19,142 nucleotides of DNA from Actinomycetota bacterium (GTDB taxonomy: Bacteria > Actinomycetota > Actinomycetes > Nanopelagicales > Nanopelagicaceae). The translations under genes were made by a program, and so were the position numbers. The notes beneath the pieces are model-generated. The model did not search any database and was not told where the DNA came from. It saw only the letters and a list, made by a program, of their open reading frames with translations. The stretch is taken from assembly GCA_009699645.1 (NCBI GenBank), contig WLNU01000011.1, forward strand, positions 1 through 19,142, given 5' to 3'. Below are positions 2,217-15,091 of this stretch, piece by piece. Within the stretch, counting starts at the first letter, position 1; every line of letters begins with the position of its first letter.

Positions 2217-3923
2217 TTAGTGTGATTCGCGGGTAACTTCTGGTCCACTAGAGCCACGCAGAAAATCTAAATCTGCACCTTTATCTGACTGCATAACGTG
2301 ATCTATATACATGCGCTGCCAACCACGAACGGGATTGGCATAGGCTTCCTGAGACTTAAGCGATGGTGTTCTTTGACTAATCTCTTCATCGGTTAATTTC
2401 ACATTAATAGTTCGCGCTAAAACATCTAGCTCGATGATGTCGCCATTTTGAATAATTCCTAGTGGACCTCCGGCGGCCGACTCAGGGGCCACATGCAAAA
2501 TAACAGTTCCATATGCCGTACCGCTCATGCGACCATCACAGATACGGACCATATCTGTAATGCCTTTGGCAAGTATTTTGCGTGGAAGCTGCATGTTTGC
2601 AACTTCAGGCATCCCTGGATATCCCTTTGGACCACATCCACGTAGTACGAGAACGCTATTTTCCGTTACTTCAAGCTCATCACTATCGATACGTGCATGA
2701 AAATCTTCGATACTCTCAAAGACAACTGCAGGACCTGTATGTTTTAAAAGGTGTGGGCTTGCAGCCGATGGCTTAATTACTGCGCCAAGTGGGGCTAAAT
2801 TTCCACGAAGTACTGCAATCCCAGCGGTCTCTTGCAGCGGATTCTCACGGGTGCGTATTACATCAGAATCATAGATTGTGCCTTCACCCAAAGTTTTAAT
2901 AAGTGCTTCACCAGTGACAGTAATTGCCTTTGGATTAAGCAAAGCTTCTAACTGGCGAAATACAGCGTGTAATCCGCCGGAACGGTAAAAATCCTCCATT
3001 AAATACTTTCCAGATGGCTGCAGATTCACAAGCAAGGGAATTTTCGAGCCAATGGCATCAAAGTCATCAAGGGTTAGATCTACACCTAAGCGTCCAGCAA
3101 TTGCTAAGAGGTGAACTACGGCATTAGTCGAGCCACCAATTGCAGCTAAAGCAAGAATTGCATTTTCAAATGAGGCCTTTGTCATAATCTGACTTGGCTT
3201 TAAATCTTTCTTAACCATCTCGACAATATGTCGACCAGAGTTATGTGATGCTTGAAGCAGACGTGAATCAGCTGCAGGAGTGCCTGCAACTTCTGGAAGA
3301 GTCATTCCGAGTGCTTCGGCCATAATTCCCATCGTTGATGCCGTTCCCATAGTGTTGCAATGTCCACGACTTCGAATCATTGAAGACTCTGATTTTAAAA
3401 ACTTCGCATTACTGAGAAGGCCTGCACGCACCTCTTCGCTCAAGCGCCACACATCAGTTCCACAGCCAAGGGGGTTGCCTTGGAAAGTTCCCGTTAACAT
3501 CGGGCCACCTGGAATAACTAGCGATGGAAGATCAACTGAGGCCGCTCCCATAAGAAGGGCTGGAATTGTTTTATCGCAGCCACCGAGCAGAATTGCACCA
3601 TCAATAGGATTAGCCCGCATCAACTCTTCGGTAGCCATTGCAACCATATTCCGCCAGAGCATCGCAGTTGGTCGCACTTGAGTTTCACCGAGTGAGAGCA
3701 TTGGTAGATTCAGCGGTACGCCGCCGGCCTCCCACACACCGTTTTTTACACTCTGTGCAATCTCATCTAAGTGTGAGTTACAAGGGGCGAGATCTGATGC
3801 GGTATTGATGATGGCGATTTGAGGTCTGCCATCGAAGGCAGAGTCTGGGTTGCCTCTTCGCATCCAAGCCCGGTGTATGTAGGCATCACGAGAATCTCCG
3901 GCATACCAGTGCGCACTTCGCAA
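2217..3923 (-). CDS. IlvD/Edd-family sugar-acid dehydratase (L-arabinonate/D-xylonate dehydratase-like)
   Basis: Fe-S dehydratase of 568 residues that removes water from an aldonic acid to give a 2-keto-3-deoxy acid. It resembles the Rhizobium L-arabinonate dehydratase throughout, including the early stretch around SRDAYIHRAW and the C-terminal GADLDFLRG. The three [2Fe-2S] ligand cysteines are present at C48 (APCNSH), C116 (GGCDKT) and C189 (GHCNTMG), with the 68- and 73-residue spacing I recall for that subfamily. It is therefore more likely a pentonate/sugar-acid dehydratase than the IlvD of branched-chain amino acid synthesis. The start is TTG at 3921-3923, chosen because AAGGGAG (3931-3937, minus strand) sits 7 nt upstream. 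The gene is divergent from the dehydrogenase/lactonase operon at 4005, supporting a shared pathway. The exact substrate is unknown. Confidence 0.85.
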   Translation of the reverse strand: MRSAHWYAGDSRDAYIHRAWMRRGNPDSAFDGRPQIAIINTASDLAPCNSHLDEIAQSVKNGVWEAGGVPLNLPMLSLGETQVRPTAMLWRNMVAMATEELMRANPIDGAILLGGCDKTIPALLMGAASVDLPSLVIPGGPMLTGTFQGNPLGCGTDVWRLSEEVRAGLLSNAKFLKSESSMIRSRGHCNTMGTASTMGIMAEALGMTLPEVAGTPAADSRLLQASHNSGRHIVEMVKKDLKPSQIMTKASFENAILALAAIGGSTNAVVHLLAIAGRLGVDLTLDDFDAIGSKIPLLVNLQPSGKYLMEDFYRSGGLHAVFRQLEALLNPKAITVTGEALIKTLGEGTIYDSDVIRTRENPLQETAGIAVLRGNLAPLGAVIKPSAASPHLLKHTGPAVVFESIEDFHARIDSDELEVTENSVLVLRGCGPKGYPGMPEVANMQLPRKILAKGITDMVRICDGRMSGTAYGTVILHVAPESAAGGPLGIIQNGDIIELDVLARTINVKLTDEEISQRTPSLKSQEAYANPVRGWQRMYIDHVMQSDKGADLDFLRGSSGPEVTRESH

Positions 3924-3930
3924 GTATCTG

Positions 3931-3937
3931 CTCCCTT
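3931..3937 (-). promoter_or_regulatory. Shine-Dalgarno site that fixes the TTG start of the dehydratase
   Basis: AAGGGAG on the minus strand lies 7 nt before TTG 3923. It is the only strong ribosome binding site near the N-terminus and supports the non-ATG start. Confidence 0.7.
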
Positions 3938-3946
3938 AAAATCGAA

Positions 3947-3975
3947 ATGAAAGTGGCGCGAGCATAGCCTTTCAA
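3947..3975 (-). promoter_or_regulatory. Predicted promoter for the dehydratase gene
   Basis: On the minus strand, TTGAAA (3975-3970) is followed after 17 nt by TTTCAT (3952-3947), which matches four of six positions of a -10 consensus. The implied start is near 3940, leaving a short leader that contains the Shine-Dalgarno site. GCCACTT immediately upstream of and overlapping the -10 is also found at the promoters at 7307 and 12791. Confidence 0.45.
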
Positions 3976-3987
3976 CGAATACTTCGT
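3975..3987. promoter_or_regulatory. Perfect 5-3-5 palindrome in the divergent promoter region (candidate operator)
   Basis: ACGAA TAC TTCGT is a perfect inverted repeat. It abuts the predicted -35 of the minus-strand dehydratase promoter and ends 1 nt before the predicted -10 (TAGCAT, 3989-3994) of the plus-strand operon. A protein bound here could control both directions. The binding factor is unknown, and a 13-bp palindrome can occur by chance. Confidence 0.4.
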
Positions 3988-3988
3988 C

Positions 3989-3994
3989 TAGCAT
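3989..3994 (+). promoter_or_regulatory. Possible -10 element for the dehydrogenase/lactonase operon
   Basis: TAGCAT lies 10 nt before ATG 4005, so transcription would begin within a few bases of the start codon. No clear -35 and no Shine-Dalgarno are visible, consistent with a leaderless mRNA. Confidence 0.35.
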
Positions 3995-4004
3995 AAGCGC
4001 TCTT

Positions 4005-5024
4005 ATGAAAGCTTTTGTTGTACATTCACCTGGTCAAGCCAGCATTGAAGAGGTTGACCCACCTACTCCTCAAGGAAATCAGGTGGTAGTTGAGATTGCT
4101 CGTGCTGGAGTATGTGGCACAGATGTAGAGTTTTTTAATGGCGATATGGCCTACTTTGAAACTGGTGAAGCACACTATCCAATGCGCCTTGGTCATGAGT
4201 GGTGTGGAACTGTAGTTTCACTTGGAGAAGGCGCAGATAGAAAATGGCTCGGCAAACGTGTTACTGGCGACACAATGCTAGGTTGTCAAAAGTGCAAACG
4301 TTGCTTAACGGGTAGACAACATGTATGTGCCAATCGTTATGAAATTGGAATTAGAAATGGCTGGCCGGGGGCGCTAGCAGAGCAACTGCTTGTTCCTGCA
4401 CATGCATTATTTTCACTTCCAGATTCAATTGATGACACGATTGGCGCACTTATTGAGCCGGGTGGAAATGCACTTCGAGCTGCGCAAGCCGCACACGCAG
4501 GTCCTGGAAAGAAGGTTTTAATTTGGGGAAGTGGAACGATCGGATTATTAACTGCGCAGTTTGCAATTGTGATGGGTGCAGAAGTACATATGATTGGCAG
4601 AAATGTATCGACACTTTCCCTGGCTCGAACGTTAGGTGTTTATAGCGCTATGCAGGAGCTTGAAGAGGTTGAAGGTGGCTTTGATGCGATTATCGATGCG
4701 ACCAACAGCAAAGATGTTCCAGCGATGGCTTTGAGCGCAGTTGAGCCAGGTGGTCGGCTTGTCTATATCGGAGTCTCTGGAGAGCCGAGCATGATCGATA
4801 GCCGTGCCCTTGTTCTCAATGACGTAAGCGCAGTTGGAATTCTTTCAGCCTCACCGGGACTAGAAGGTGCTATCTCCTTCTATTCAAATGGCACAGTCGA
4901 TCCGCGGCCAATAGTTGCTGCAACGGTTGGATTAGCAGATACAGCCGATGTCTTAGCTGGCAAGCGGCCGATTGGTGCTGGAATTGGTCCTAAAGTTCAC
5001 ATCGACCCAAGGGCATCTCAATGA
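4005..5024 (+). CDS. Zn-dependent medium-chain alcohol/sugar dehydrogenase
   Basis: NAD(P)-dependent dehydrogenase of 339 residues. Visible features in order are catalytic-zinc residues C37 (GVCGTD) and H64-E65 (GHEW), structural-zinc cysteines C94, C97, C100 and C108, E151 in LIEPGGN, and the Rossmann loop GSGTIG at 175-180. It resembles the threonine/polyol dehydrogenase branch that includes sugar and inosose dehydrogenases. Its 4-nt overlap (ATGA) with the SMP-30 lactonase gene suggests that it oxidises an aldose to a lactone. A role like Thermotoga IolM, a Zn-dependent inosose dehydrogenase, is an alternative. The ATG at 4005 has no Shine-Dalgarno and may be leaderless. Confidence 0.85.
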   Translation: MKAFVVHSPGQASIEEVDPPTPQGNQVVVEIARAGVCGTDVEFFNGDMAYFETGEAHYPMRLGHEWCGTVVSLGEGADRKWLGKRVTGDTMLGCQKCKRCLTGRQHVCANRYEIGIRNGWPGALAEQLLVPAHALFSLPDSIDDTIGALIEPGGNALRAAQAAHAGPGKKVLIWGSGTIGLLTAQFAIVMGAEVHMIGRNVSTLSLARTLGVYSAMQELEEVEGGFDAIIDATNSKDVPAMALSAVEPGGRLVYIGVSGEPSMIDSRALVLNDVSAVGILSASPGLEGAISFYSNGTVDPRPIVAATVGLADTADVLAGKRPIGAGIGPKVHIDPRASQ

Positions 5025-5902
5025 TTAATATTCGAGAGCTTTCAAGCCAGGTTTCAGATTTAGGGGAAGGTCCAATCTGGATTGATGATAGAAATGAAGT
5101 GATGTGGGTTGATATACCTGGAAAAAAACTGCACTGTTCGGATTTTGATTCGGGCCTGACAAACACATGGAGTTTTCCAACTTCAATCTGCGCATTTGCA
5201 GAAAATATTAATGGTGGATATATCGCAGCGACCTTAGTCGGATTTGGAGAAATAGACGCACAGGGGGAGCTACACCCGATGCACACTTTTCTAGATATAA
5301 ACATGAGATTTAATGATGGAAAAGCCGATGCTGCTGGTCGTTTTTGGGCTGGAACTACTGCCTTAGATTTTGCTCCCAATCGTGGAAGCCTCTACGTGGT
5401 TGAAGTCGATGGAACGTATCGGAAAGTTTTGGAGAATATAACGCTCTCTAACGGTATGGGTTGGTCTCCATGCAATCAATATTTTTACTACATCGATAGC
5501 ATCCCAGGGGTTATGAAGCGCTTCGATTTCGATCTAATAAAGGGAACTATTGAAAATTCGATTGATTTCATTGTTTTTGACGCAACTAAGGGAATACCAG
5601 ATGGAATGACGGTTACCAATGACGGACTACTCGTTGTTGCATTGTGGGATGGCTCTCGACTGGAAGTATTCTCAGCAGAGGGTAAGAAGATTGATGAGAT
5701 TCTTCTTCCAGTACAACGCCCAACCTCATGCACTTTTGGAGGTGCCGATGGCGCCACCCTCTTGGTTACATCATCGGGGCAAGATCTGGATCGAGCTGCC
5801 CAGCCATTGAATGGGAAATCTCTCGCAGTTGATGGCACTGGATTAAGTGGAGCTACAAGCCGCGCATATGGCAGTGTCGACTTCTCGATTGTGGCACAGT
5901 AG
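5021..5902 (+). CDS. SMP-30/gluconolactonase/LRE-family sugar lactonase
   Basis: Six-bladed beta-propeller lactonase of 293 residues that hydrolyses aldonolactones to aldonic acids using a divalent metal. The expected metal-site residues are present: E16 (GEGP), N98 (RFNDGK), N144 (LSNGMGWS) and D194 (GIPDGM). The C-terminal SRAYG is also typical. There is no signal peptide, so it is cytoplasmic. Its ATG overlaps the dehydrogenase stop codon (ATGA), so the two are translationally coupled. Together they convert an aldose to the aldonate that the divergent dehydratase could take. Confidence 0.9.
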   Translation: MINIRELSSQVSDLGEGPIWIDDRNEVMWVDIPGKKLHCSDFDSGLTNTWSFPTSICAFAENINGGYIAATLVGFGEIDAQGELHPMHTFLDINMRFNDGKADAAGRFWAGTTALDFAPNRGSLYVVEVDGTYRKVLENITLSNGMGWSPCNQYFYYIDSIPGVMKRFDFDLIKGTIENSIDFIVFDATKGIPDGMTVTNDGLLVVALWDGSRLEVFSAEGKKIDEILLPVQRPTSCTFGGADGATLLVTSSGQDLDRAAQPLNGKSLAVDGTGLSGATSRAYGSVDFSIVAQ

Positions 5903-5908
5903 ATTTCG

Positions 5909-7297
5909 ATGGTGCGGACACGGGTCGAACTAAGTGCTTCACATATTGCCGCAATTGGTCAGATGGTTGATGGGCGTATCTCAACCAACCAATCGGTTTT
6001 AGAGCTGCATGGGCGAGATGAGTCGGCATTTCCACCAATTAATCCCGATGCCGTTGTCCACGTCCTCTCAACACAAGAGGTTTCAGATGTTCTCAAATAC
6101 TGCAATGCCAACGATATTCCAGTGGTGGCCTTTGGAGCTGGAACCTCACTAGAGGGCCATGTCCTACCGCTTTATGGCGGAATATCATTGGATTTAAGTG
6201 GCATGGACAAAATTCTTGAAGTAAGACCAGATGATTTAACAGTTCGTGTTCAAGCTGGTGTCAAGAGAATGGCTTTGAATAAAAAGATTTCATCCGATGG
6301 AATCTTTTTCTCAGTCGATCCTGGCGCCGATGCAACTATTGGTGGAATGGCCGCAACTGGTGCTGCTGGAACTACAACAGTGCGATATGGATCTATGCGA
6401 GAGAATGTTTTAAAGCTTACAGCCGTCTTAGCTGATGGAACGATTATTGAAACTGGGCGTGAGACCAGAAAGCAATCTGCCGGCTATGACTTAACTCGTT
6501 TAATCGTTGGTTCAGAAGGAACGTTGGCAGTTATTACTGAGATATCTTTGAGGGTATTCGGAATTCCAGAGCGGATGGCTGCAGCGGTCTCTAGATTTCC
6601 TACATTAGCTGCTGGCGTAGAAGCCGCAATTGCAATCGTTAGATCTGGAGTAGCAATCGCACGATGTGAATTTTTAGATGCTCGATGTATCAAAAATGTA
6701 AATCTTTATGATGGTCTAGCTCTAGAAGAGGCTCCCACATTACTTTTTGAGTTTCATGGAACCCCTCGTGGTGTCGAAGAAGATGCAACTGTTGTTCAAG
6801 AAATTGCGGCGGAGTTTGGTGGTACAAACTTTGAGTGGACATCTGAAGAGGGTGCACGTCGAAAACTATGGCAGGCTCGACACAATGCATATTGGGCGGG
6901 ATTGGCGGCATATCCAGGCAAGCGAGCAATTAGCACTGATGCAGCTGTACCACTATCCAAACTCGCAGAGGCCGTGGAGATCACTGAAAAAATTCTCGCC
7001 CAATCTCCATTCCCCTTCTCATTCCTCGGCCACGTTGCCGATGGAAATTTTCATGCATTCATCATCACCGATCCAGAAAAGCCAGAAGAGTTGAGTGCTG
7101 TGCGGCTTTTAACCCATGAAATGACTTCGGCAATAATCACATTAGGTGGAACCTGCACTGGCGAACATGGAATTGGAGCGGGAAAGATCGAGTCCCTTGA
7201 AGAGGAGACTGGCATCGCTGCAGTTAACTCCATGAAGGCGATCAAAGCCGCTCTCGATCCCCGAGGAATTCTGAACCCAGGCAAGATTTTCACCTAA
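5909..7297 (+). CDS. FAD-binding 2-hydroxyacid oxidase/dehydrogenase (D-lactate dehydrogenase/GlcD-like)
   Basis: Flavoprotein of 462 residues in the FAD_binding_4 plus FAD-oxidase C-terminal family, which includes cytochrome-linked D-lactate dehydrogenase and glycolate oxidase subunit GlcD. The FAD-binding segments are GAGTSLEGH (76-84), the GAAGTTTVRYGSMRENVL region (151-168) and GSEGTLAVIT (201-210). The C-terminal domain has GHVADGNFH (374-382) and GEHGIGAGK (418-426), expected metal and active-site regions in the D-lactate group. The start is 6 nt after the lactonase stop, has no Shine-Dalgarno and is probably coupled to upstream translation. In a non-phosphorylative sugar route it could oxidise glycolate, D-lactate or a sugar acid. 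Confidence 0.85.
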   Translation: MVRTRVELSASHIAAIGQMVDGRISTNQSVLELHGRDESAFPPINPDAVVHVLSTQEVSDVLKYCNANDIPVVAFGAGTSLEGHVLPLYGGISLDLSGMDKILEVRPDDLTVRVQAGVKRMALNKKISSDGIFFSVDPGADATIGGMAATGAAGTTTVRYGSMRENVLKLTAVLADGTIIETGRETRKQSAGYDLTRLIVGSEGTLAVITEISLRVFGIPERMAAAVSRFPTLAAGVEAAIAIVRSGVAIARCEFLDARCIKNVNLYDGLALEEAPTLLFEFHGTPRGVEEDATVVQEIAAEFGGTNFEWTSEEGARRKLWQARHNAYWAGLAAYPGKRAISTDAAVPLSKLAEAVEITEKILAQSPFPFSFLGHVADGNFHAFIITDPEKPEELSAVRLLTHEMTSAIITLGGTCTGEHGIGAGKIESLEEETGIAAVNSMKAIKAALDPRGILNPGKIFT

Positions 7298-7306
7298 AGC
7301 CTGCCC

Positions 7307-7335
7307 TTGACGGCGGCACCCAGGCCACTTAATAT
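7307..7335 (+). promoter_or_regulatory. Predicted promoter of the oxidase/epimerase/UPF0261/creatininase operon
   Basis: TTGACG (7307-7312), 17-nt spacer and TAATAT (7330-7335). This is the best sigma-70-like promoter in the window with the one at 12791. The octamer GCCACTTA (7324-7331) joins spacer and -10 and is identical at 12809-12816. The start would be near 7342, inside the palindrome at 7337-7344. Confidence 0.6.
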
Positions 7336-7336
7336 C

Positions 7337-7344
7337 TGTATACA
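7337..7344. promoter_or_regulatory. Palindrome TGTATACA, candidate GntR operator
   Basis: Perfect 8-bp palindrome placed 1 nt after the -10 and covering the predicted transcription start. GTATAC-type sites are common among FadR/FCD-type GntR regulators, and such a regulator is the last gene of this operon. Repression by overlap with the start site is an inference. Confidence 0.45.
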
Positions 7345-7388
7345 AGGTCGAATACGCAAACGAACATTGGATGTAGTGGGAGGGCTCA

Positions 7389-8870
7389 ATGGTGGCGGGT
7401 TTAGGACAGCCAGAGATTCGAGATCTCTATCTTATTAAGCAAATTCAGCGTGAGATTGCCGTCGTTGTAGGAGCCGAGCACGTGAGTACCGATCCCGCAA
7501 TTTTGCATGAGCAATCATCGGATTGGTCTTGGATTTCACAACATTTAAATCTTAATAAGCTGCCAGTTCCAACTGCCGATATCTATGCAAGCCCAGGAAC
7601 GGCAGATGAGGTCGCAGAAGTTTTACGTATTGCCTGCGAATATAAAATTCCAGTAGTACCTCGTGGAGGCGGCTCTGGCACGCAAGGTGGAACTTTTGCA
7701 ATCTACGGTGGAATTGCAATGGATCTTCGGCGCTTAAATAAGATCATAGATATAGATGAAGTAAGTATGGTTGTAACGGCTGAGGCCGGAATAGTAGGAC
7801 CAGAGCTTGAAAAGGTTCTAAATGCTAAGGGTTTAACAATGCCGCACTACCCAGGCTCATTTCACTTTGGTGCAACTCTTGGCGGATATTTAGCAGCACG
7901 TGGCTCCGGTGTAATTTCAACTAAGTATGGAAAAGCCGAAGATTTAGTTTTACAACTAGAGGCTGCGATGCCTCCAGGTAAATTAATTGAGACGATGAAA
8001 GTTCCAAGTCACGCATCTGGTCCTGGAATCATCCAAGCAATAGTGGGATCAGAGGGAACGCTCGGGATTATTACTAAAGCAACGATGCGTATCGAACGCC
8101 TTCCTGAATCACAGGTTTTTCTCTCCTATGGATTCAAAGATATAAGTACAGGAATAGAAGCAGCCCGCCTTATTATGATTAATCGTTGGCGCCCAGCCGT
8201 TATTCGACTCTACGATGAAGCCGATAGTGCCAAACTCTCCTCATGGCTAAATTTAGGTGTTGAAGGTGTATTGATTGTCATCATGTGTGATGGAACAAAA
8301 GAGTTAACTGCCCTAGAGTCGAATGAGATTGCCAAGTTGTGTGAATCAGTCGGCGGAAAATCATATGGACCAGAAGTTGGACAGATGTGGTGGGATGGAA
8401 AATATGAGCCTTTTAAGCATGGAAACATCCCCGCACCTCCTCAGATATTTGGAACAACTGACACATGTGCCCGCTTTGAGGATTTAGAGAGGATTTATTG
8501 GGCTAAAAAAGAGGCGATTGAAGTTGGATTTGCCGAATATGGCGCTCGATATACCGCTCACTTTTCACATTGGTTTCCTTGGGGCGGCATGATTTATGAC
8601 CGCTTCTATATTGATAATGGACCTAAAGACTCTGATGAAGCGATAGCACTTCATGATCGAGTGTGGGATGCAGCGATAAAAGCTAGTCTCGATAATGGTG
8701 GCTCTCTGAATGAACACCATGGTGTCGGGTTAAAGCTAGGACGGTTCATGCGCATGGCGCATGGAGCCGCATTTGATTTACTCCTCGGAGTAAAAAACGC
8801 TTGGGATCCGGATGGAATCCTAAATCCAGGGAAACTTGGATTTGGTCCTCCGAAGAACAGGCAACATTAA
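7389..8870 (+). CDS. FAD-binding oxidase of the alkyl-DHAP synthase-like group
   Basis: Flavoprotein of 493 residues with an FAD_binding_4 N-terminal half: PRGGGSGTQGG (91-101), a GSFHFGATLGGYLAARGSG segment (156-174) and GSEGTLGIIT (220-229). Its C-terminal half has HFSHWFPWG (390-398) and NEHHGVG (440-446). These resemble the histidine motifs of alkyldihydroxyacetonephosphate synthases and differ from the D-lactate-dehydrogenase-like paralogue at 5909. The family oxidises or rearranges hydroxy substrates on FAD. An ether-lipid role is unlikely here because the gene heads an operon with a sugar epimerase and hydrolase, so oxidation of a sugar or polyol hydroxyl is a better guess. ATG 7389 has GGGAGG 5 nt upstream. 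Confidence 0.75.
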   Translation: MVAGLGQPEIRDLYLIKQIQREIAVVVGAEHVSTDPAILHEQSSDWSWISQHLNLNKLPVPTADIYASPGTADEVAEVLRIACEYKIPVVPRGGGSGTQGGTFAIYGGIAMDLRRLNKIIDIDEVSMVVTAEAGIVGPELEKVLNAKGLTMPHYPGSFHFGATLGGYLAARGSGVISTKYGKAEDLVLQLEAAMPPGKLIETMKVPSHASGPGIIQAIVGSEGTLGIITKATMRIERLPESQVFLSYGFKDISTGIEAARLIMINRWRPAVIRLYDEADSAKLSSWLNLGVEGVLIVIMCDGTKELTALESNEIAKLCESVGGKSYGPEVGQMWWDGKYEPFKHGNIPAPPQIFGTTDTCARFEDLERIYWAKKEAIEVGFAEYGARYTAHFSHWFPWGGMIYDRFYIDNGPKDSDEAIALHDRVWDAAIKASLDNGGSLNEHHGVGLKLGRFMRMAHGAAFDLLLGVKNAWDPDGILNPGKLGFGPPKNRQH

Positions 8871-8902
8871 TCACCCAACTGATTCTTTTTGAAGGGAGAG
8901 TC

Positions 8903-9802
8903 ATGCACTTATCAATGCACAACTGGATGCGCGCAGAGCCTATTAAGGTGACCGTTGCGCGTTTAGCAAAGTACGGATATAAAAGTATCGAAATTAGTGG
9001 TGAGCCTGAGCAGTTCGGTCTTAATGGAAGTAAGGACACCAAGAAACTCCTTGATGACTACGGCCTAAAGTGCTGGGGTTCGGTAACTCTTATGCTGGGT
9101 GAGCGCAATCTTGTTGCACTTGATCCAGCTAAGCGTGCAATGTCGGTCAAGTATGTTAAAGACTGCATCACAATGGTTAAAGAGCTTGATGGTTATGAGA
9201 TGACTATCGTTCCTGCAACAGTTGGAAAAGTTGTAGCCGATGCGACTCCTGATGAAGAGTGGAAATGGGCAGTCGAGAGCATGAAAGAGATTTACGAATA
9301 TTCAGAGAAGTCGGGCGTTCGTCTTGCTATCGAACCTTTGAACCGTTTCGAAACCTACTTCATTACTCGTGCCGAGCAGGCGATGGCGCTAGCTGAAGCT
9401 ACTGGGCCAAACTGCGGAGTCTGCCTTGATGCATTTCATATCAATATTGAAGAGGCCGATATCTATGAGGCTATTCGAAGCACAAAGGGTCGCCTAACCG
9501 ACTTCCACGTGGCTGAAAATAACCGTATGCCAGCTGGTCATGGCGACTATGACTGGAAGAAAGTCATCGAAACATTGAAGAGCATCGGATACGACGGTGC
9601 ATTGACCGCTGAATTCGTCGCATCGATCGACCGCACACCAGTCAATCACTACAAGAACGCTCTAGAGACTGATTTCTCTAAGGTAGATATCAGCCCAGAG
9701 CAACTCAAGTTCATCATCGACCACGGTTCTAACATTCTTACCGAAGAGTTTTACGACTGGTTAGTTGAAGAGAACGCTAAGACACTTCTTCACCTGATTT
9801 AG
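8903..9802 (+). CDS. Xylose-isomerase-like TIM-barrel epimerase (D-tagatose 3-epimerase/5-keto-L-gluconate epimerase-like)
   Basis: Metal-dependent sugar isomerase/epimerase of 299 residues (AP_endonuc_2 fold). The metal-site residues of the tagatose/psicose 3-epimerase group can be assigned: E144 (IEPLNRFE), D176 and H179 (LDAFHINIEE), H202 (FHVAENNR), R208 and E237 (TAEF). Thermotoga IolO, an epimerase of the inositol route, belongs to the same broad fold family. The frame is open further upstream, but ATG 8903 is chosen because GAAGGGAGA sits just before it and the barrel's first strand begins there. It is 32 nt downstream of the oxidase gene and in the same operon. The substrate is probably a keto sugar or keto acid made by that oxidase (inference). 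Confidence 0.8.
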   Translation: MHLSMHNWMRAEPIKVTVARLAKYGYKSIEISGEPEQFGLNGSKDTKKLLDDYGLKCWGSVTLMLGERNLVALDPAKRAMSVKYVKDCITMVKELDGYEMTIVPATVGKVVADATPDEEWKWAVESMKEIYEYSEKSGVRLAIEPLNRFETYFITRAEQAMALAEATGPNCGVCLDAFHINIEEADIYEAIRSTKGRLTDFHVAENNRMPAGHGDYDWKKVIETLKSIGYDGALTAEFVASIDRTPVNHYKNALETDFSKVDISPEQLKFIIDHGSNILTEEFYDWLVEENAKTLLHLI

Positions 9803-9828
9803 TAGTAGAGGGCGAATCGGAAGTAAAA

Positions 9829-11064
9829 GTGAGCAAATCTGTTCTCATTATTGCAACCTTGGATACTAAAGGTCCTGAGGCCGCTTACATCCGCGACGGC
9901 TTAAACCGTCTTGGAATTAAGACGACCGTTATTGATACTGGAATTTTGGGTGAACCACTCGACATTACTCCAGATATCTCTCACGAGGAGTTAGCCAAAT
10001 TTGGCGGAATAACTCTTCATGAGTTACAAAACTCTGGGACCAGGGGCAGGGCTGTAGAGCAGATGCGAAGATTTGTTATTGATAAAGTGCAAGATCTATA
10101 TTCAAAGGGTGAAGTCCTCGGTGCCATCGGAATCGGTGGCGCTGAGGGCTCCGTGATGTCTGCTGGGGCGTTAATGACTTTACCTATTGGAGTTCCAAAA
10201 TTAGTTTTATCGCCAATTGCATCTGGGAGACATGAGTTTGGCCCTCTAGTTGGCACGAGTGACATGCTAGTCATGCACACCGTAATCGACATTCTTGGCT
10301 TAAATAATATTTCCAAGACTGTCTTTGATAATGCTGTCGCAGCAATGGCAGGACTTATTCAGTATGGGCATCCACTCGCAAAACCACCAGAAAACAGTAA
10401 ATATGTCGCAGTAACGATGTTAGGCAATACGACCACTGCAGTGATGGCGCTTCAAAATGAGTTAGCCAAGTATGGATATGAAGTAATTACATTTCACGCA
10501 AATGGTGTTGGTGGATCGGCAATGGAAGAGCTCGCAGAGGCGGGACAATTTGTCGGAGTTATTGATTTCACACCATCTGAGGTAGTTGGAGCCATAGTTG
10601 GTGGGATCCATAACGCTGGCCCCGAACGTATGAAGCGAGTTGGCGCACTTGGAATTCCTCAGATTGTAGTGACAGCCTGTGTAGATTTCTCGGTTCACCA
10701 TACAACATCAATTCCACCTGAGTTTTCCAAGCGCCCTATTTATGATCACAACCCTGAGTTTGCTTTGGTAAGAGTTAGCAAGGCAGAGATTATTGAGATA
10801 GCTAAGTACTTAGCAGAGTGCGCAAATTTAGCTACAGGAGCGATCGAAATAGCAATTCCAACTCAGGGTTTTTCAATTCCTAACATCCCAGGTGGCGTCT
10901 TTTGGGATCGCGAAGCTGATGCAGCTTTTGAGGAAGCTCTCATTAATAATACAAAATCTAGTGTGCGGATCGAAAAATTCGCGATGCATGCAAATGCACC
11001 AGAGTTTGGCATAGCAGTTGCACAGCGTTTTCTCTCACTCATCAACGTCAATTCCACGAAATAG
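9829..11064 (+). CDS. UPF0261 / Tm-1-like ATP-binding domain protein
   Basis: Protein of 411 residues of the UPF0261 family, related to the N-terminal part of plant Tm-1. It opens with the typical strand and loop IIATLDTKGPEA. Conserved blocks are GIGGAEGS (101-108, probable nucleotide or phosphate loop), SGRHEFGPLVGTSDML (132-147) followed by MHTVIDILGLN, and a second alpha/beta domain from about residue 191. No enzymatic reaction is established for bacterial members as far as I know. Members recur in sugar-acid and amide catabolic clusters, suggesting a metabolic enzyme. The start is GTG at 9829 with GGAAG upstream. It lies 26 nt after the epimerase and 14 nt before the creatininase homologue. 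Confidence 0.85.
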   Translation: MSKSVLIIATLDTKGPEAAYIRDGLNRLGIKTTVIDTGILGEPLDITPDISHEELAKFGGITLHELQNSGTRGRAVEQMRRFVIDKVQDLYSKGEVLGAIGIGGAEGSVMSAGALMTLPIGVPKLVLSPIASGRHEFGPLVGTSDMLVMHTVIDILGLNNISKTVFDNAVAAMAGLIQYGHPLAKPPENSKYVAVTMLGNTTTAVMALQNELAKYGYEVITFHANGVGGSAMEELAEAGQFVGVIDFTPSEVVGAIVGGIHNAGPERMKRVGALGIPQIVVTACVDFSVHHTTSIPPEFSKRPIYDHNPEFALVRVSKAEIIEIAKYLAECANLATGAIEIAIPTQGFSIPNIPGGVFWDREADAAFEEALINNTKSSVRIEKFAMHANAPEFGIAVAQRFLSLINVNSTK

Positions 11065-11078
11065 CAAAAGGAGCAATC

Positions 11079-11996
11079 ATGAACTACGCGACACCTCAGA
11101 GAAAAGTTCCACACATTACAACTGGAGACGGGGATTTCCGCAATAAATTTAGGTCGTGGAACATTGCAGACCTAACATTTGTAGATATAAATGAATATTT
11201 GAAGGAAAAGGATGTAATTATCGTACCGATGGCAAGCACTGAACAACATGGTCCTCACTTGCCGCTGTATACCGACACAATCACTGCCATTGAAGTCTCA
11301 TCACGAGTTTCAGAGCAAATCGGAATTTTGCACACTCCACCGATTTGGACTGGCTACTCACCACAGCATATGTATGGACCTGGCCAAGGGCGTGGAACGA
11401 TTACTGTTCGAGCCGAAACTCTGAACGCCTTGATGTATGACATTGCACGTAGCTTGATTCACCACGGCTTTAACCGCATCATCTTTGTGAACGGACACGG
11501 CTCTAACGTTAAAGTTGTAGATCCAGTTCTACGCAAACTGCGCTATGAGACAAATGCGATGATTGGTTTTGTTAAGCCATATATGGAGCGTTATACCGGT
11601 ATTCTCGCCGGTCTTATGGAGAATCCTCCTGAGGAGACACCGGGATGGCACTCCAGTGAGTTGGAAACTTCGCAGGACATGGCTTGGAATGAAGACTTGG
11701 TCCGTATGGAGCGTGCAGTAGATACCCGTGCTCATACTCCAGCATTTCTACCTAAATCATTTAGTAAAAATGATGGAATGCCAGATGTCGAATTTGAAGG
11801 TTATCAATACTTCCAATTCCCAATGGATCACCATGAGTTTGTTGACAACGGCATAATTGGAAATCCAATGCGAGCAACAAAGGCTAAGGGCGAAGAGGCC
11901 TTCCATCGTTTTAGCACGCATGTTTCAAAGGGAATATTAGAGCTCATGAAGATGCCAGTAACAGTGATAAACCGAGAGTTCATAAATCGGGTCTGA
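11079..11996 (+). CDS. Creatininase-superfamily metal-dependent hydrolase
   Basis: Protein of 305 residues with the creatininase fold. Candidate metal ligands are E55 and H57 in STEQHGPHLP, D66 in LYTD, H140 in VNGHGSN, and E195 in HSSELETS, which parallels HAGEWETS of creatininase. The family includes creatininase, mycofactocin peptidase MftE, the riboflavin-pathway hydrolase ArfB, and IolN, the ring-opening hydrolase of Thermotoga inositol breakdown. Creatinine use is unlikely, since no creatinase or sarcosine genes are nearby. With a sugar oxidase and epimerase in the same operon, hydrolysis of a cyclic ketone, lactone or amide intermediate is more plausible. ATG 11079 has AAAAGGAG upstream. 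About 30 N-terminal residues precede the conserved core. Confidence 0.8.
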   Translation: MNYATPQRKVPHITTGDGDFRNKFRSWNIADLTFVDINEYLKEKDVIIVPMASTEQHGPHLPLYTDTITAIEVSSRVSEQIGILHTPPIWTGYSPQHMYGPGQGRGTITVRAETLNALMYDIARSLIHHGFNRIIFVNGHGSNVKVVDPVLRKLRYETNAMIGFVKPYMERYTGILAGLMENPPEETPGWHSSELETSQDMAWNEDLVRMERAVDTRAHTPAFLPKSFSKNDGMPDVEFEGYQYFQFPMDHHEFVDNGIIGNPMRATKAKGEEAFHRFSTHVSKGILELMKMPVTVINREFINRV

Positions 11997-12043
11997 GTTT
12001 ACGTGCCTGTAATATCAATTGGAATGATAAGAAAGGAATGGTA

Positions 12044-12766
12044 GTGATAAAAGGAAAGAACGATGAATTCTTGATAAATAAGAGTTCAGAATCTTTAGGT
12101 GATGATGCCTATGAGTGGCTAGTTGCTGCCATTACCTCCTTTCGAATTCCAACTAATAGCTCTATCTCAGAGAATAAATTAGCTTCAGAGCTGGGTGTTA
12201 GTCGAACTCCTGTGAGAGAGGCACTTAAGCGCTTAGAGAGTGAGGGCTTAGTCAAACGTGGTGATGCCGGTCGTTTTACCGTAGCGATGTTAACTGGCAA
12301 AGATGTTGATGAGGCGATTGATTTCTTACTTCTCTGCGATGTTTATTTATTTCAGAAAGCGGCAGAAAATCTCTCAGATTCAGATGGCAAGCTTTTGAGC
12401 TCATCAGTAAAAAATATGGCCTCATCGGCAAAACAGGGAGATCGTGATGGCTGGATAGCAGCCGATCTAGTCTTCCATGAGACGATTATGCGATCGGCAA
12501 ACAATGCATTGGTAGCCGATTCGGCTCGTAATACGCGACGAAGAATTCAACGTTTTTGGGCGCGTTCTTTATCTGGTGCAAAGGATTTAGCTACCTGTTC
12601 TGATGAACATACCGTGATTGCGCGTGCAATTTTAGATAAAAACATGGAGGCTATAGAACTTGCTGTTATAGGTCATCTCTCACATCTGAGATTGAACATG
12701 CAGGAGATAGTGGATTCTATGGCACCATTTCTAGGTATTGCAGTCAAGAGTGAGCGGGGGCGATAA
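12044..12766 (+). CDS. GntR-family transcriptional regulator, FadR/FCD subfamily
   Basis: DNA-binding regulator of 240 residues. The winged helix-turn-helix spans about residues 25-82 and contains ISENKLASELGVSRTPVREA and the wing KRGDAGRFTV. The C-terminal all-helical FCD domain has candidate metal/effector ligands D141, H145, H189 and H211. FCD members usually sense carboxylic acids such as sugar acids or lactate. GTG 12044 is preferred over ATG 12038, because AAAGGA (12032-12037) lies 6 nt before the GTG but directly touches the ATG. It sits last in the 7389 operon and just before the 12905 unit. Both promoters carry GTATA/TATAC palindromes, making it the obvious candidate regulator. It would be autoregulated if so. 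Confidence 0.88.
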   Translation: MIKGKNDEFLINKSSESLGDDAYEWLVAAITSFRIPTNSSISENKLASELGVSRTPVREALKRLESEGLVKRGDAGRFTVAMLTGKDVDEAIDFLLLCDVYLFQKAAENLSDSDGKLLSSSVKNMASSAKQGDRDGWIAADLVFHETIMRSANNALVADSARNTRRRIQRFWARSLSGAKDLATCSDEHTVIARAILDKNMEAIELAVIGHLSHLRLNMQEIVDSMAPFLGIAVKSERGR

Positions 12767-12790: not shown

Positions 12791-12820
12791 TTGACTGAGC
12801 GCCGTGTTGCCACTTATATA
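12791..12820 (+). promoter_or_regulatory. Predicted promoter of the Gfo/Idh-TIM barrel operon
   Basis: TTGACT (12791-12796), 18-nt spacer and TATATA (12815-12820). The octamer GCCACTTA (12809-12816) spans the spacer/-10 junction exactly as at 7324-7331. The start would be near 12827, giving a leader of about 78 nt that is AT-rich and ends in GAGGGAG before ATG 12905. I see no convincing riboswitch or hairpin in that leader. Confidence 0.6.
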
Positions 12821-12828
12821 CAGGTATA
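12817..12828. promoter_or_regulatory. Palindrome TATAC-AG-GTATA, candidate GntR operator
   Basis: Perfect 5-2-5 inverted repeat overlapping the -10 and the predicted transcription start. The half-site GTATA is shared with TGTATACA at 7337-7344. It begins 51 nt after the GntR gene ends. Binding is inferred, not shown. Confidence 0.5.
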
Positions 12829-12904: not shown

Positions 12905-14071
12905 ATGGCCAAGGTGCTAAAAGTTGCAATGATTGGTTATGGGTTTATGGGCAAAGTGCACTCCAATGCATGGCGCTCAGTAAATCATTTCTTTCCAGAG
13001 GCTCCACAAGTTGAGATGACGGTAATTTGTGGACGAAGCGCTCAGGCATTAGAGGCAGCGCGAGTTCAATTTGGCTGGAAAGAGGCAGAGACTGACTGGA
13101 AAGCAATCATCTCTCGAAGCGACATTGATATCGTCGATATTTGCACCGCAGGAGACATGCATGAAGAGATTGCAATTGCCGCCCTTCGTGCCGGTAAACA
13201 TGTTATATGTGAAAAACCTTTAGCTAATAATGGCGTGCAAGCAGCGGCTATGGCCGCGGCTGCAAGTGAGGCCGCTAAAAAAGGTGTTAAATCAATGGTG
13301 GCCTTTAACTATCGCCGGGTTCCTGCTCTTGCTCTTGCAAAGAGTTTGATAGATAGTGGAAAGCTCGGTCGCATATTTCATATTCGTGCTAACTACCTTC
13401 AAGATTGGATTATCGATCCAGAGTTTCCTCTAGTGTGGCGCTTGGAAAAAAAGACCGCTGGTTCTGGAGCGTTAGGAGATATCGCCGCACATATTGTCGA
13501 TGCAGCGTTTTTCTTAACTGGGTCAAAGATTACGAAAGTTAGTGGGCAATTAAAAACTTTCATCGAGAAGCGCCCACTTCCAGGTGCGTATACAGGTTTA
13601 ACCGCTGCAGGAACTTCAGCTCGTGGAAAAGTCACAGTAGATGACACGGCGGTTTTTACAGCTCAGTTAGATAACGGCGCGATTGGAGTCTTTGAAGCCA
13701 CTCGCTTTGCAGCTGGTCGCAAAAATGCCATGTCAATCGAGATTAATGGCTCTAAGGGCTCACTCTTCTTCAACTTTGAAGATATGAATGAACTCCTATT
13801 TCATGACCATACCGAAGAGTCAAAGGATGCTGGTTTTAAGAAGATTCTTGCAACCGATGGAAATCATCCATATATGGCGGCGTGGTGGCCACCAGGTCAC
13901 ATTATTGGATATGAACACACCTTCACCCACGAGATGAAGGATTTTATAGTTGCAATTCAAGAGAATTTCGCTCCATCTCCTTCATTTGCTGATGGACTCT
14001 ATGTTCAGCAGGTTTTAGATGCAGTCGAAGTAAGCGCAAACAGTAACTCTCAACTAACCGAAGTGAAATAG
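12905..14071 (+). CDS. Gfo/Idh/MocA-family sugar dehydrogenase (levoglucosan dehydrogenase-like)
   Basis: NAD(P)-dependent dehydrogenase of 388 residues. The N-terminal Rossmann domain has GYGFMG (11-16). The catalytic lysine motif EKPLA is at 103-107, with K104. The C-terminal domain has YLQDW (164-168) and GSGALGDIAAHIVDA (186-200), including D192 and H196. The VAFNYRR...YLQDW...GSGALGDI series resembles the levoglucosan dehydrogenase of Arthrobacter relatives, which oxidises the C3 hydroxyl. Inositol dehydrogenases are another close group. It is followed after 12 nt by a TIM-barrel gene, a pairing seen in 3-keto-sugar degradation. ATG 12905 has GAGGGAG upstream. Confidence 0.85.
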   Translation: MAKVLKVAMIGYGFMGKVHSNAWRSVNHFFPEAPQVEMTVICGRSAQALEAARVQFGWKEAETDWKAIISRSDIDIVDICTAGDMHEEIAIAALRAGKHVICEKPLANNGVQAAAMAAAASEAAKKGVKSMVAFNYRRVPALALAKSLIDSGKLGRIFHIRANYLQDWIIDPEFPLVWRLEKKTAGSGALGDIAAHIVDAAFFLTGSKITKVSGQLKTFIEKRPLPGAYTGLTAAGTSARGKVTVDDTAVFTAQLDNGAIGVFEATRFAAGRKNAMSIEINGSKGSLFFNFEDMNELLFHDHTEESKDAGFKKILATDGNHPYMAAWWPPGHIIGYEHTFTHEMKDFIVAIQENFAPSPSFADGLYVQQVLDAVEVSANSNSQLTEVK

Positions 14072-14083
14072 AAGGAGAAAGAA

Positions 14084-15091
14084 ATGACACGTCCAGTTAC
14101 ATTATTTACCGGTCAATGGGCAGATCTTCCATTTGAAGAAATGTGTCGATTGGCTTCTTCATGGGGATATGATGGTTTGGAAATAGCTTGTTGGGGTGAT
14201 CACTTTGAAGTAGATCGTGCCCTCAATGAACCTGGCTATATTGAAGGTCGTCACGCGATACTCAAGAAACATAATTTGAAAGTCTTCGCTATTTCTAATC
14301 ACTTAGTGGGTCAAGCAGTTTGCGATCATCCAATCGATGAGCGCCATAAGGGAATTTTGCCATCACGACTATGGGGCGATGGCGATCCAGAAGGTGTTCG
14401 CACACGTTGTGCTAAAGAGATGATGGATACAGCTCGAGCTGCACGCAAACTTGGCGTAGACGTTGTCATTGGCTTTACCGGATCATCGATTTGGCACACT
14501 CTTGCCATGTTCCCACCAGTTCCACCATCGATGATTGATGCTGGATACAAAGACTTTGCAGATCGCTGGAATCCAATTCTTGATGTATTTGATGAAGTTG
14601 GAGTTAAGTTCGCCCATGAAGTTCATCCATCTGAGATTGCCTACGATTATTGGACAACTGTTCGAACATTAGAGGCAATCAATCACCGTCCTGCATTTGG
14701 CTTAAATTTTGATCCAAGCCACTTCGTTTGGCAGGATTTAGATCCAGTTGGATTCCTCTCTGATTTTAGAGATCGTATTTATCATGTCGATTGCAAAGAG
14801 TCGAAGAAGCAATTAAATGGTCGTAATGGTCGTTTAGGTTCACATCTACCGTGGGGAGATCAACGCCGTGGTTGGGACTTTGTTTCAGTCGGTCATGGTG
14901 ATGTTCCATGGGAGGCGTGTTTTAGAATGTTAAATGCGATTGGTTATGCAGGTCCTATCTCAGTTGAGTGGGAGGATGCTGGAATGGATCGCCTTCTTGG
15001 TGGGCCAGAATCCTTAGCCTTTATTCGCAAGATGGTTGCAATCGAACCTCCAAGCGCATCATTTGATGCCGCCTTTAGTTCAAAGGATTAA
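14084..15091 (+). CDS. Xylose-isomerase-like TIM-barrel protein (sugar phosphate isomerase/epimerase family)
   Basis: Protein of 335 residues with the AP_endonuc_2/xylose isomerase-like fold. Candidate metal and active-site residues are E179 and H181 (HEVHPSE), D210 and H213 (LNFDPSHF), H234 and K238 (YHVDCKES) and E295 (VEWED). It belongs to a different branch from the barrel at 8903, and the N-terminal [13 protein letters not shown] is typical of actinobacterial members sitting next to Gfo/Idh dehydrogenases. Members of this broader group act on 3-keto sugars, by isomerisation or by beta-elimination of a glycosidic bond. ATG 14084 has AGAAGGAGAAAG upstream, giving good spacing. It ends 10 nt from the convergent kinase gene. 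The reaction and substrate are not determined. Confidence 0.8.

Follow-up and report, generated by a model that had tools for sequence, protein, structure and literature searches.

The stretch of DNA analysed here (the window) comprises 19,142 nucleotides of contig WLNU01000011.1 (assembly GCA_009699645.1) from an actinobacterium of the family Nanopelagicaceae. On its forward strand lie the genes of an FAD-dependent enzyme (FAD2), a TIM barrel (TIM1), a protein of the family UPF0261, a creatininase-family protein (CREAT) and a GntR regulator, followed by a Gfo/Idh dehydrogenase (GFO) and a second TIM barrel (TIM2). This gene set is a conserved module whose co-location goes beyond chance, since the order FAD2-TIM1-UPF0261-CREAT recurs in acI-type genomes, in another actinobacterium (G257) and in Chloroflexota. 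Given this linkage across two phyla, it is highly probable that the genes serve one pathway, as the original prediction had proposed. We tentatively read the module as a GntR-controlled catabolism of a glycoside or an oxidised sugar by a keto-sugar route, a possibility that we rate somewhat below even. Within the open-licence literature searched, the module appears to be undescribed.

Of 20 CREAT loci examined outside the window, 16 contain the complete four-gene set, so the co-occurrence of these enzymes is not rare. The complete loci are eight of acI type (L001 to L007 and L026), one from G257 (L023) and seven from Chloroflexota (L008 to L012, L024 and L034). The acI-type set was defined by membership of the same order as the genome of L002 (L001, L003, L006, L007, L013, L026 and L036) and, for L005, by identity alone. 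Three of the four incomplete loci (L025, L035 and L036) end at contig edges; in L025 a UPF0261-PF09370 pair directly adjoins CREAT. The fourth, in Thermus (L021), is a variant with the order TIM barrel, CBS protein, Zn dehydrogenase (ZnDH) and GntR, then CREAT, UPF0261, class II aldolase and tripartite transporter. The Thermus plasmids were counted once, with L021 used, L020 being a second copy and four further records remaining outside the count. Also outside it is contig G013:C157, which carries the CREAT of the genome whose locus L013 shows FAD2-TIM1-UPF0261 and then the contig end. The UPF0261 search returned 13 loci, eight actinobacterial at 75-89% identity and five from Chloroflexi at 55-57%, which points to a freshwater actinobacterium of acI type.

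The distribution of the module is patchy. At E 1e-60, centre genomes included, it was found in 3 of the 394 class genomes, in 8 of the 201 genomes from the acI order, in 3 of the 301 Chloroflexota and in 3 of the 80 genomes from a single Chloroflexota order, and among 22 genomes around G257 the module family was present only in G257 itself. Among 72,556 plasmid records, CREAT was detected at E 1e-40 in only six, all from Thermus, and a near-identity search of plasmids gave no match. Microbacterium and Cryobacterium are among the genera listed with proteins 78-80% identical to CREAT. The patchiness within the class and the order, together with the variability of an adjoining non-phosphorylative sugar cassette, would fit general sugar-scavenging genes that co-travel by horizontal transfer and share no single pathway. 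The identical four-gene order in three lineages, the grouping of the CREAT-paired UPF0261 proteins in a single set of 18 rows and the shared operator (both described below) make this explanation very improbable.

FAD2 (7389..8870), TIM1 (8903..9802), the UPF0261 gene (9829..11064, GTG start), CREAT (11079..11996) and the GntR/FCD regulator gene (12038..12766) are all on the + strand and are separated by 32, 26, 14 and 41 nt. The packed same-strand arrangement of five genes described in the original prediction is therefore right in order, strand and the first three gaps, whereas its last gap of 47 nt, which would require a GTG start at 12044, was re-measured as 41 nt. In the list of open reading frames (ORFs) TIM1 starts with TTG at 8801, and its conserved part begins with the ATG at 8903. 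The five proteins match, all above the cut-off, the Pfam families FAD_binding_4 and FAD-oxidase_C, AP_endonuc_2, UPF0261 N and C, Creatininase, and GntR and FCD. The five-gene extent first proposed (7389..12766) proved too narrow because the cluster at most loci also includes GFO (12905..14071, +) and TIM2 (14084..15091, +): both are present in 11 of the 13 loci with informative flanks, the window included, and they are co-located in acI-type genomes and Chloroflexota.

The UPF0261 family is labelled uncharacterised in Pfam, and the only NCBIfam cut-off passed by a module protein is that of a UPF0261 subfamily model named 'hypothetical protein' (NF002674). The original prediction had left this protein at an unassigned step, for which ATP-dependent phosphorylation is now a candidate. 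The window protein possesses both the N and C domains of UPF0261 and is homologous over nearly its full length to Saro_1862 (PDB 9MPY; profile match E 1.8e-83, about 30% identity), with which it shares the two-domain architecture and the stretches DTK, GG..GS, H..G.GG and HNP. The 9MPY entry reads 'Saro_1862 ... with bound acetovanillone'. PMC13101465 describes MarK of N. aromaticivorans as 'a single-component kinase' and reports that kinase and carboxylase genes cluster in only 52 of 836 cases. We infer that Saro_1862 and MarK are one protein, and on this homology the window protein is probably an ATP-dependent small-molecule kinase of the MarK type. Unlike MarK/Saro_1862, it has no Hpe/Acv-type partner among the window proteins and is accompanied instead by CREAT and the ketose-epimerase-like TIM1. 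The homology to an acetovanillone-binding protein, and the BenE-family and HAAT (branched-chain-type) transporters near the acI-type copies, might suggest a route for aromatic glycosides or aryl ketones, in which GFO and TIM2 would release an aryl ketone, UPF0261 would phosphorylate it in the manner of MarK and CREAT would cleave the side chain. We consider such a route quite improbable: the 19 window proteins scanned by Pfam include none from a carboxylase, phosphatase, CoA ligase or ring-cleavage family, the active site of TIM1 is of the ketose-epimerase type and the identity to 9MPY is only about 30%.

As judged from gene neighbours and phylogeny, UPF0261 is divided by partner, the partner being either CREAT or PF09370. 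Of 388 sampled genomes of the class, 29 contain UPF0261 genes, and so do 54 of 301 Chloroflexota genomes. At 30 loci of the actinobacterial class (30 of 33 matches), 19 have PF09370 as neighbour, two have CREAT and nine have neither; for the 30 best of 63 Chloroflexota matches, the neighbour is PF09370 in 28 and neither in two. These counts leave out the CREAT-paired genes of G005, G556 and G257, which are seen in L008, L024 and L023. A tree was built by a quick method from 89 of 106 hits after removal of duplicates and short sequences, with partner labels assigned from ORFs at most 700 bases away (L055 and L084 carry the label 'neither', although tblastn finds PF09370). The CREAT-paired proteins cluster together in 18 rows (SH-aLRT 99; L008 and L136 are the same gene), and 69 PF09370-paired or unpaired rows lie across a branch with a support of 96. 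The proteins of Thermus (L021) and Ruegeria (L031) stand apart on long branches, so that the CREAT label needs two changes on this tree. The known pair of UPF0261 and PF09370 (Tm-1-like and 'PEP hydrolase-like') involves the same family, whereas the CREAT-paired proteins constitute a separate clade.

Some loci show further arrangements of UPF0261 genes. The Chloroflexota loci L008 to L010, L024 and L034 contain two UPF0261 units, one with PF09370 and the other with TIM1 and CREAT; the PF09370-type unit of L008 to L010 (L008:1-3278) also includes an epimerase-like TIM barrel and a cupin. On a Thermomicrobium plasmid (L027:4131-18161), UPF0261 and PF09370 are accompanied by genes for a HAAT transporter and for PEP-binding/PEP-utilising enzymes, a gene set reminiscent of a two-component acetovanillone kinase. 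On plasmid pAA1-1b of Thermus thermophilus (L020:10865-12211), the UPF0261 gene beside CREAT is shortened next to a transposase gene, and in T. brockianus (L021) it is of full length.

CREAT scores 201.6 bits on PF02633 (gathering threshold 31.3) and belongs to this superfamily with the metal-ligand residues E55, H57, D66 and H140, which together with E196 are invariant across the 17 aligned rows, among them IolN and annotated creatininases. The creatininase-fold hydrolase of the original prediction is thereby borne out, and hydrolase activity is likely. The statement that the catalytic residues are intact holds for these five positions and for all seven compared in TIM1, but the glutamate of the creatininase motif NGHYEN/NGHFEN is replaced by Ser142 in CREAT. 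The residues K166 and R171 are confined to the six CREAT-subfamily rows of the 17. On the models of characterised families, the protein stays below the cut-off and was rejected as an IolN (NF041098; 105.5 bits, cut-off 245), as a creatininase (TIGR04448; 125.1 bits, cut-off 235) and as an MftE (TIGR03964; 94.2 bits, cut-off 172); the CREAT proteins of G002, G005, G459 and G556 are likewise below the IolN cut-off. In the phylogenetic tree, 20 CREAT-subfamily rows and six IolN rows each occupy one side of a 100/100 branch, and CREAT forms its own 100/100 clade, inside none of the characterised subfamilies compared. On scores, tree and residues, CREAT is a creatininase-family subfamily of its own, and the parallel with IolN that had been drawn for the 11079 protein does not hold for its identity.

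The inositol route of Thermotoga consists of a dehydrogenase (IolM), a creatininase-family hydrolase (IolN) and an epimerase with the fold of D-tagatose 3-epimerase (IolO), and the same three types of enzyme are assembled in one cluster here. In a comparable cyclitol route, a dehydrogenase would produce a 1,3-diketo-cyclitol, CREAT would split a C-C bond of the ring as IolN does, TIM1 would act like IolO, and UPF0261 with an aldolase would substitute for the Uxa steps of Thermotoga. The metal residues are common to IolN and CREAT, the ZnDH beside CREAT in Thermus reaches 225 bits on IolM (cut-off 450; best match L-threonine 3-dehydrogenase, 245 bits), the TIM barrel of Thermus has IolO as its only NCBIfam match (27 bits, cut-off 300), for one TIM1 from Chloroflexota the best-scoring model is IolO (151 bits, below cut-off), and the sole NCBIfam match of TIM2 is IolE (38.9 bits). 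Every one of these scores is nevertheless below the cut-off, and CREAT and IolN are in separate clades, with IolN rows showing Q/H at the position of Ser142, H/Q at R152 and A/G/Q at R155. GFO and TIM2 are moreover closer to pyranoside enzymes, and we regard the cyclitol route as unlikely. Relative to Thermotoga, the kinase-like UPF0261 and the FAD dehydrogenase are additions. Of the sugar or cyclitol route originally predicted, the sugar-type setting is retained, and cyclitols are not specifically indicated.

TIM1 (299 aa) is a TIM barrel resembling tagatose/psicose 3-epimerases and IolO. The window protein keeps the equivalents of all seven active-site residues of D-tagatose 3-epimerase (E152, E158, D185, H188, H211, R217 and E246), as do 17 of 17 orthologues. 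The barrel scores 128.6 bits on D-psicose 3-epimerase (NF051856) and 127.1 bits on IolO (NF041099), both below the cut-off of 300. With all seven positions conserved, the epimerase-like barrel announced by the original prediction is supported, and TIM1 is very probably an epimerase. FAD2 is, by Pfam and its orthologues, a VAO-type FAD dehydrogenase or oxidase similar to AGPS and, over its full length, to D-lactate dehydrogenase. The acI-type genomes, G257 and Chloroflexota all carry orthologues, which in Chloroflexota are accompanied by an Fe-S partner. The stretch HVADGNFH of the neighbouring FAD1, which has a metal role, is absent from FAD2, which is AGPS-like there.

The resemblance of FAD2 to D-lactate dehydrogenase would also suit an otn/threonate-type route for sugar acids. 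FAD2 or ZnDH would oxidise a 2-hydroxy acid, TIM1 would move or invert the centre next to the carbonyl, UPF0261 would take the place of the DUF1537 kinase, the product would be cleaved or decarboxylated by an enzyme of the class II aldolase type, and CREAT would open a lactone. The order CREAT-UPF0261-class II aldolase-TctA on the Thermus plasmid agrees with this scheme, as do the HAAT transporters of acI-type genomes and G257; the Thermus aldolase matches best 'aldolase' (115 bits) and ribulose-5-phosphate 4-epimerase (112 bits) and reaches 109 bits on 3-oxo-tetronate 4-phosphate decarboxylase (cut-off 250). Against it speak the sugar ABC importer in two Chloroflexota clusters, the AGPS-like character of FAD2 at the HVADGNFH stretch, and a Pfam scan of 19 window proteins that showed no class II aldolase (other loci were not searched for it). 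A sugar-acid route thus seems improbable, about to the same degree as the cyclitol route.

GFO and TIM2 point by their sequences to pyranoside 3-keto chemistry. GFO is related to levoglucosan dehydrogenase (380.9 bits on NF052479, below the cut-off of 650) and TIM2 to the 2-hydroxy-3-keto-glucal hydratase of structure 8RO4 (139 bits). According to PMC7676230, levoglucosan degradation proceeds by C3 oxidation, beta-elimination, hydration and reduction, for which two dehydrogenases act together with a pair of 'sugar isomerase' proteins (LgdA-LgdB1-LgdB2-LgdC). These enzymes are a precedent for GFO and TIM2, the likeness lying in a Gfo/Idh C3-dehydrogenase combined with an eliminase or hydratase of the 'sugar isomerase' type. 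FAD2, UPF0261 and CREAT are without counterpart among the four enzymes of the pathway as that publication presents it.

A sigma-70-like promoter (TTGACG-17-TAATAT; 7307..7335, +), similar in layout to that before FAD2 in acI-type relatives, precedes the FAD2 operon in the window and is followed by a putative GntR operator, TCTGTATACAAG (7335..7346, +), with two mismatches to the palindrome CTTGTATACAAG. A putative second operator, CTTATATACAGG (12813..12824, +), also with two mismatches, lies upstream of GFO. In all nine acI-type relatives with the upstream region available, CTTGTATACAAG is found with 0-1 mismatch just downstream of the -10 box before FAD2, and L002, L026 and L036 each have a further site, with one mismatch, ahead of their HAAT operon. 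In 151,735 bases from 11 acI-type sources, 12 sites with 0-1 mismatch were counted against 0.5 expected, and eight with exactly two mismatches against 4.8; the acI-type loci being related, the 12 sites represent conservation and not independent events. The two window sites (7335 and 12813) are alone not above chance (0.69 expected; 30 of 200 shuffles reach two). Two Chloroflexota stretches, L068 and L072, have CCTGTATACAGG ahead of the GntR gene that belongs to the importer operon. GntR would control both operons through a palindrome of the TTGTATACAA type.

The reactions below are suggested by homology and by analogy with the IolMNO and otn routes, and we infer the substrate and the order of steps. 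GFO would oxidise a pyranoside at C3 and TIM2 would perform the matching elimination or hydration. FAD2 would then oxidise the freed keto-sugar, and the metal centre of CREAT would add water to open the oxidised ring (a lactone or a 1,3-dicarbonyl, the kind of step performed by IolN). TIM1 would epimerise the resulting ketose or keto-acid next to the carbonyl, and UPF0261 would use ATP to phosphorylate the product, which could then enter central metabolism; in Thermus the next gene encodes a class II aldolase. The complete scheme in this order is more doubtful than the general assignment to a keto-sugar route. A C3-oxidative conversion of a hexoside to a pentulose phosphate without early phosphorylation is a far less probable form of it: GFO and TIM2 would yield a 3-keto-hexose, oxidation of C1 by FAD2 would give a 3-keto-lactone (corresponding, among pyranoses, to the 1,3-diketone of IolN), CREAT would open this lactone to a beta-keto acid losing CO2 to give a pentulose, TIM1 would interconvert ribulose- and xylulose-type ketoses at C3, and UPF0261 would be a pentulose kinase. 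At one locus, L034 (genome G874), genes for xylulokinase and xylose isomerase, both above the NCBIfam cut-offs, stand just behind the module (L034:4369-8163).

Several observations weigh against the keto-sugar route. None of the seven module proteins passes an NCBIfam equivalog model, and the structure prediction of CREAT (mean pLDDT 38) was not used. MarK acts on phenolic ketones, and UPF0261 may therefore act on a non-sugar. K166 and R171 of CREAT could indicate a phosphorylated or carboxylated substrate, which would leave the order of CREAT and the kinase open to reversal. GFO and TIM2 are absent in G257 (about 29 kb examined) and in Thermus (17 kb examined), and L035, whose upstream part is cut, has GFO only, without TIM2. 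TIM2 relatives are found on 23 plasmid records, none of them among the six that bear CREAT, so GFO and TIM2 may serve a separate reaction. The palindrome is missing before the HAAT operon in L006 and L007 and before GFO in L001 and L005. Finally, the evidence on uptake is mixed because the transporters differ by lineage. A HAAT transporter follows GntR in five acI-type copies (L002, L006, L007, L026 and L036) and is divergent from FAD2 in G257. In Chloroflexota, sugar-type (SBP_bac_1) ABC importers were identified by Pfam in L024 and L008 (in its upstream stretch L068, with a MalK-type ATPase), and importers of L010 and L035 are similar to this type as judged by sequence inspection only. Thermus carries a tripartite carboxylate transporter.

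In one open-licence library, no title among the papers mentioning UPF0261 pointed to this module, no title fitted among 20 of the 31 matches of a further search, and no paper paired 'Tm-1-like ATP-binding' with creatininase; the same library contained nothing for Tm-1-like ATP-binding alone or for 9MPY by name. The only reaction that can be attached to UPF0261, by inference, is that of the N. aromaticivorans kinase (2025). The module would set a separate UPF0261 clade in sugar catabolism with a dedicated hydrolase and epimerase, and a wider role of the family therefore becomes testable with few purified proteins. The same module delineates a creatininase-family subfamily of its own and would give some freshwater actinobacteria an accessory route for carbon.

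Upstream of FAD2, the genes of IlvD, ZnDH, an SMP30 lactonase and the GlcD-like FAD1 (2217-7297) form the adjoining non-phosphorylative sugar cassette. As a core part of the module it was rejected, being absent beside L008 to L010, L024, L034 and the G257 locus (only weak FAD1 matches of 29-32% in G257); the comparison leaves out L003 and L005, whose upstream regions are too short. The cassette is diverged in L001 (30-56%), and in L002 and L007 its SMP30 gene is followed by FAH and SDR genes that resemble the L-rhamnose type, below cut-off, and that the window does not have at this place. In L006, short remnants of IlvD and SDR immediately before FAD2 (L006:7073-7360) suggest that the adjacent cassette was lost there. 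At the left edge of the window are tRNA-Gln and tRNA-Glu genes (29-243); a genomic island was unsupported, as only one of seven relatives scanned has a tRNA gene (L001, tRNA-Met). The transporters near the module in the window are of the BenE family and the LysE type only. The BenE-family transporter (977-2212) is above the NCBIfam cut-off and has relatives of 60-65% identity near the module in L001, L002, L006 and L007.

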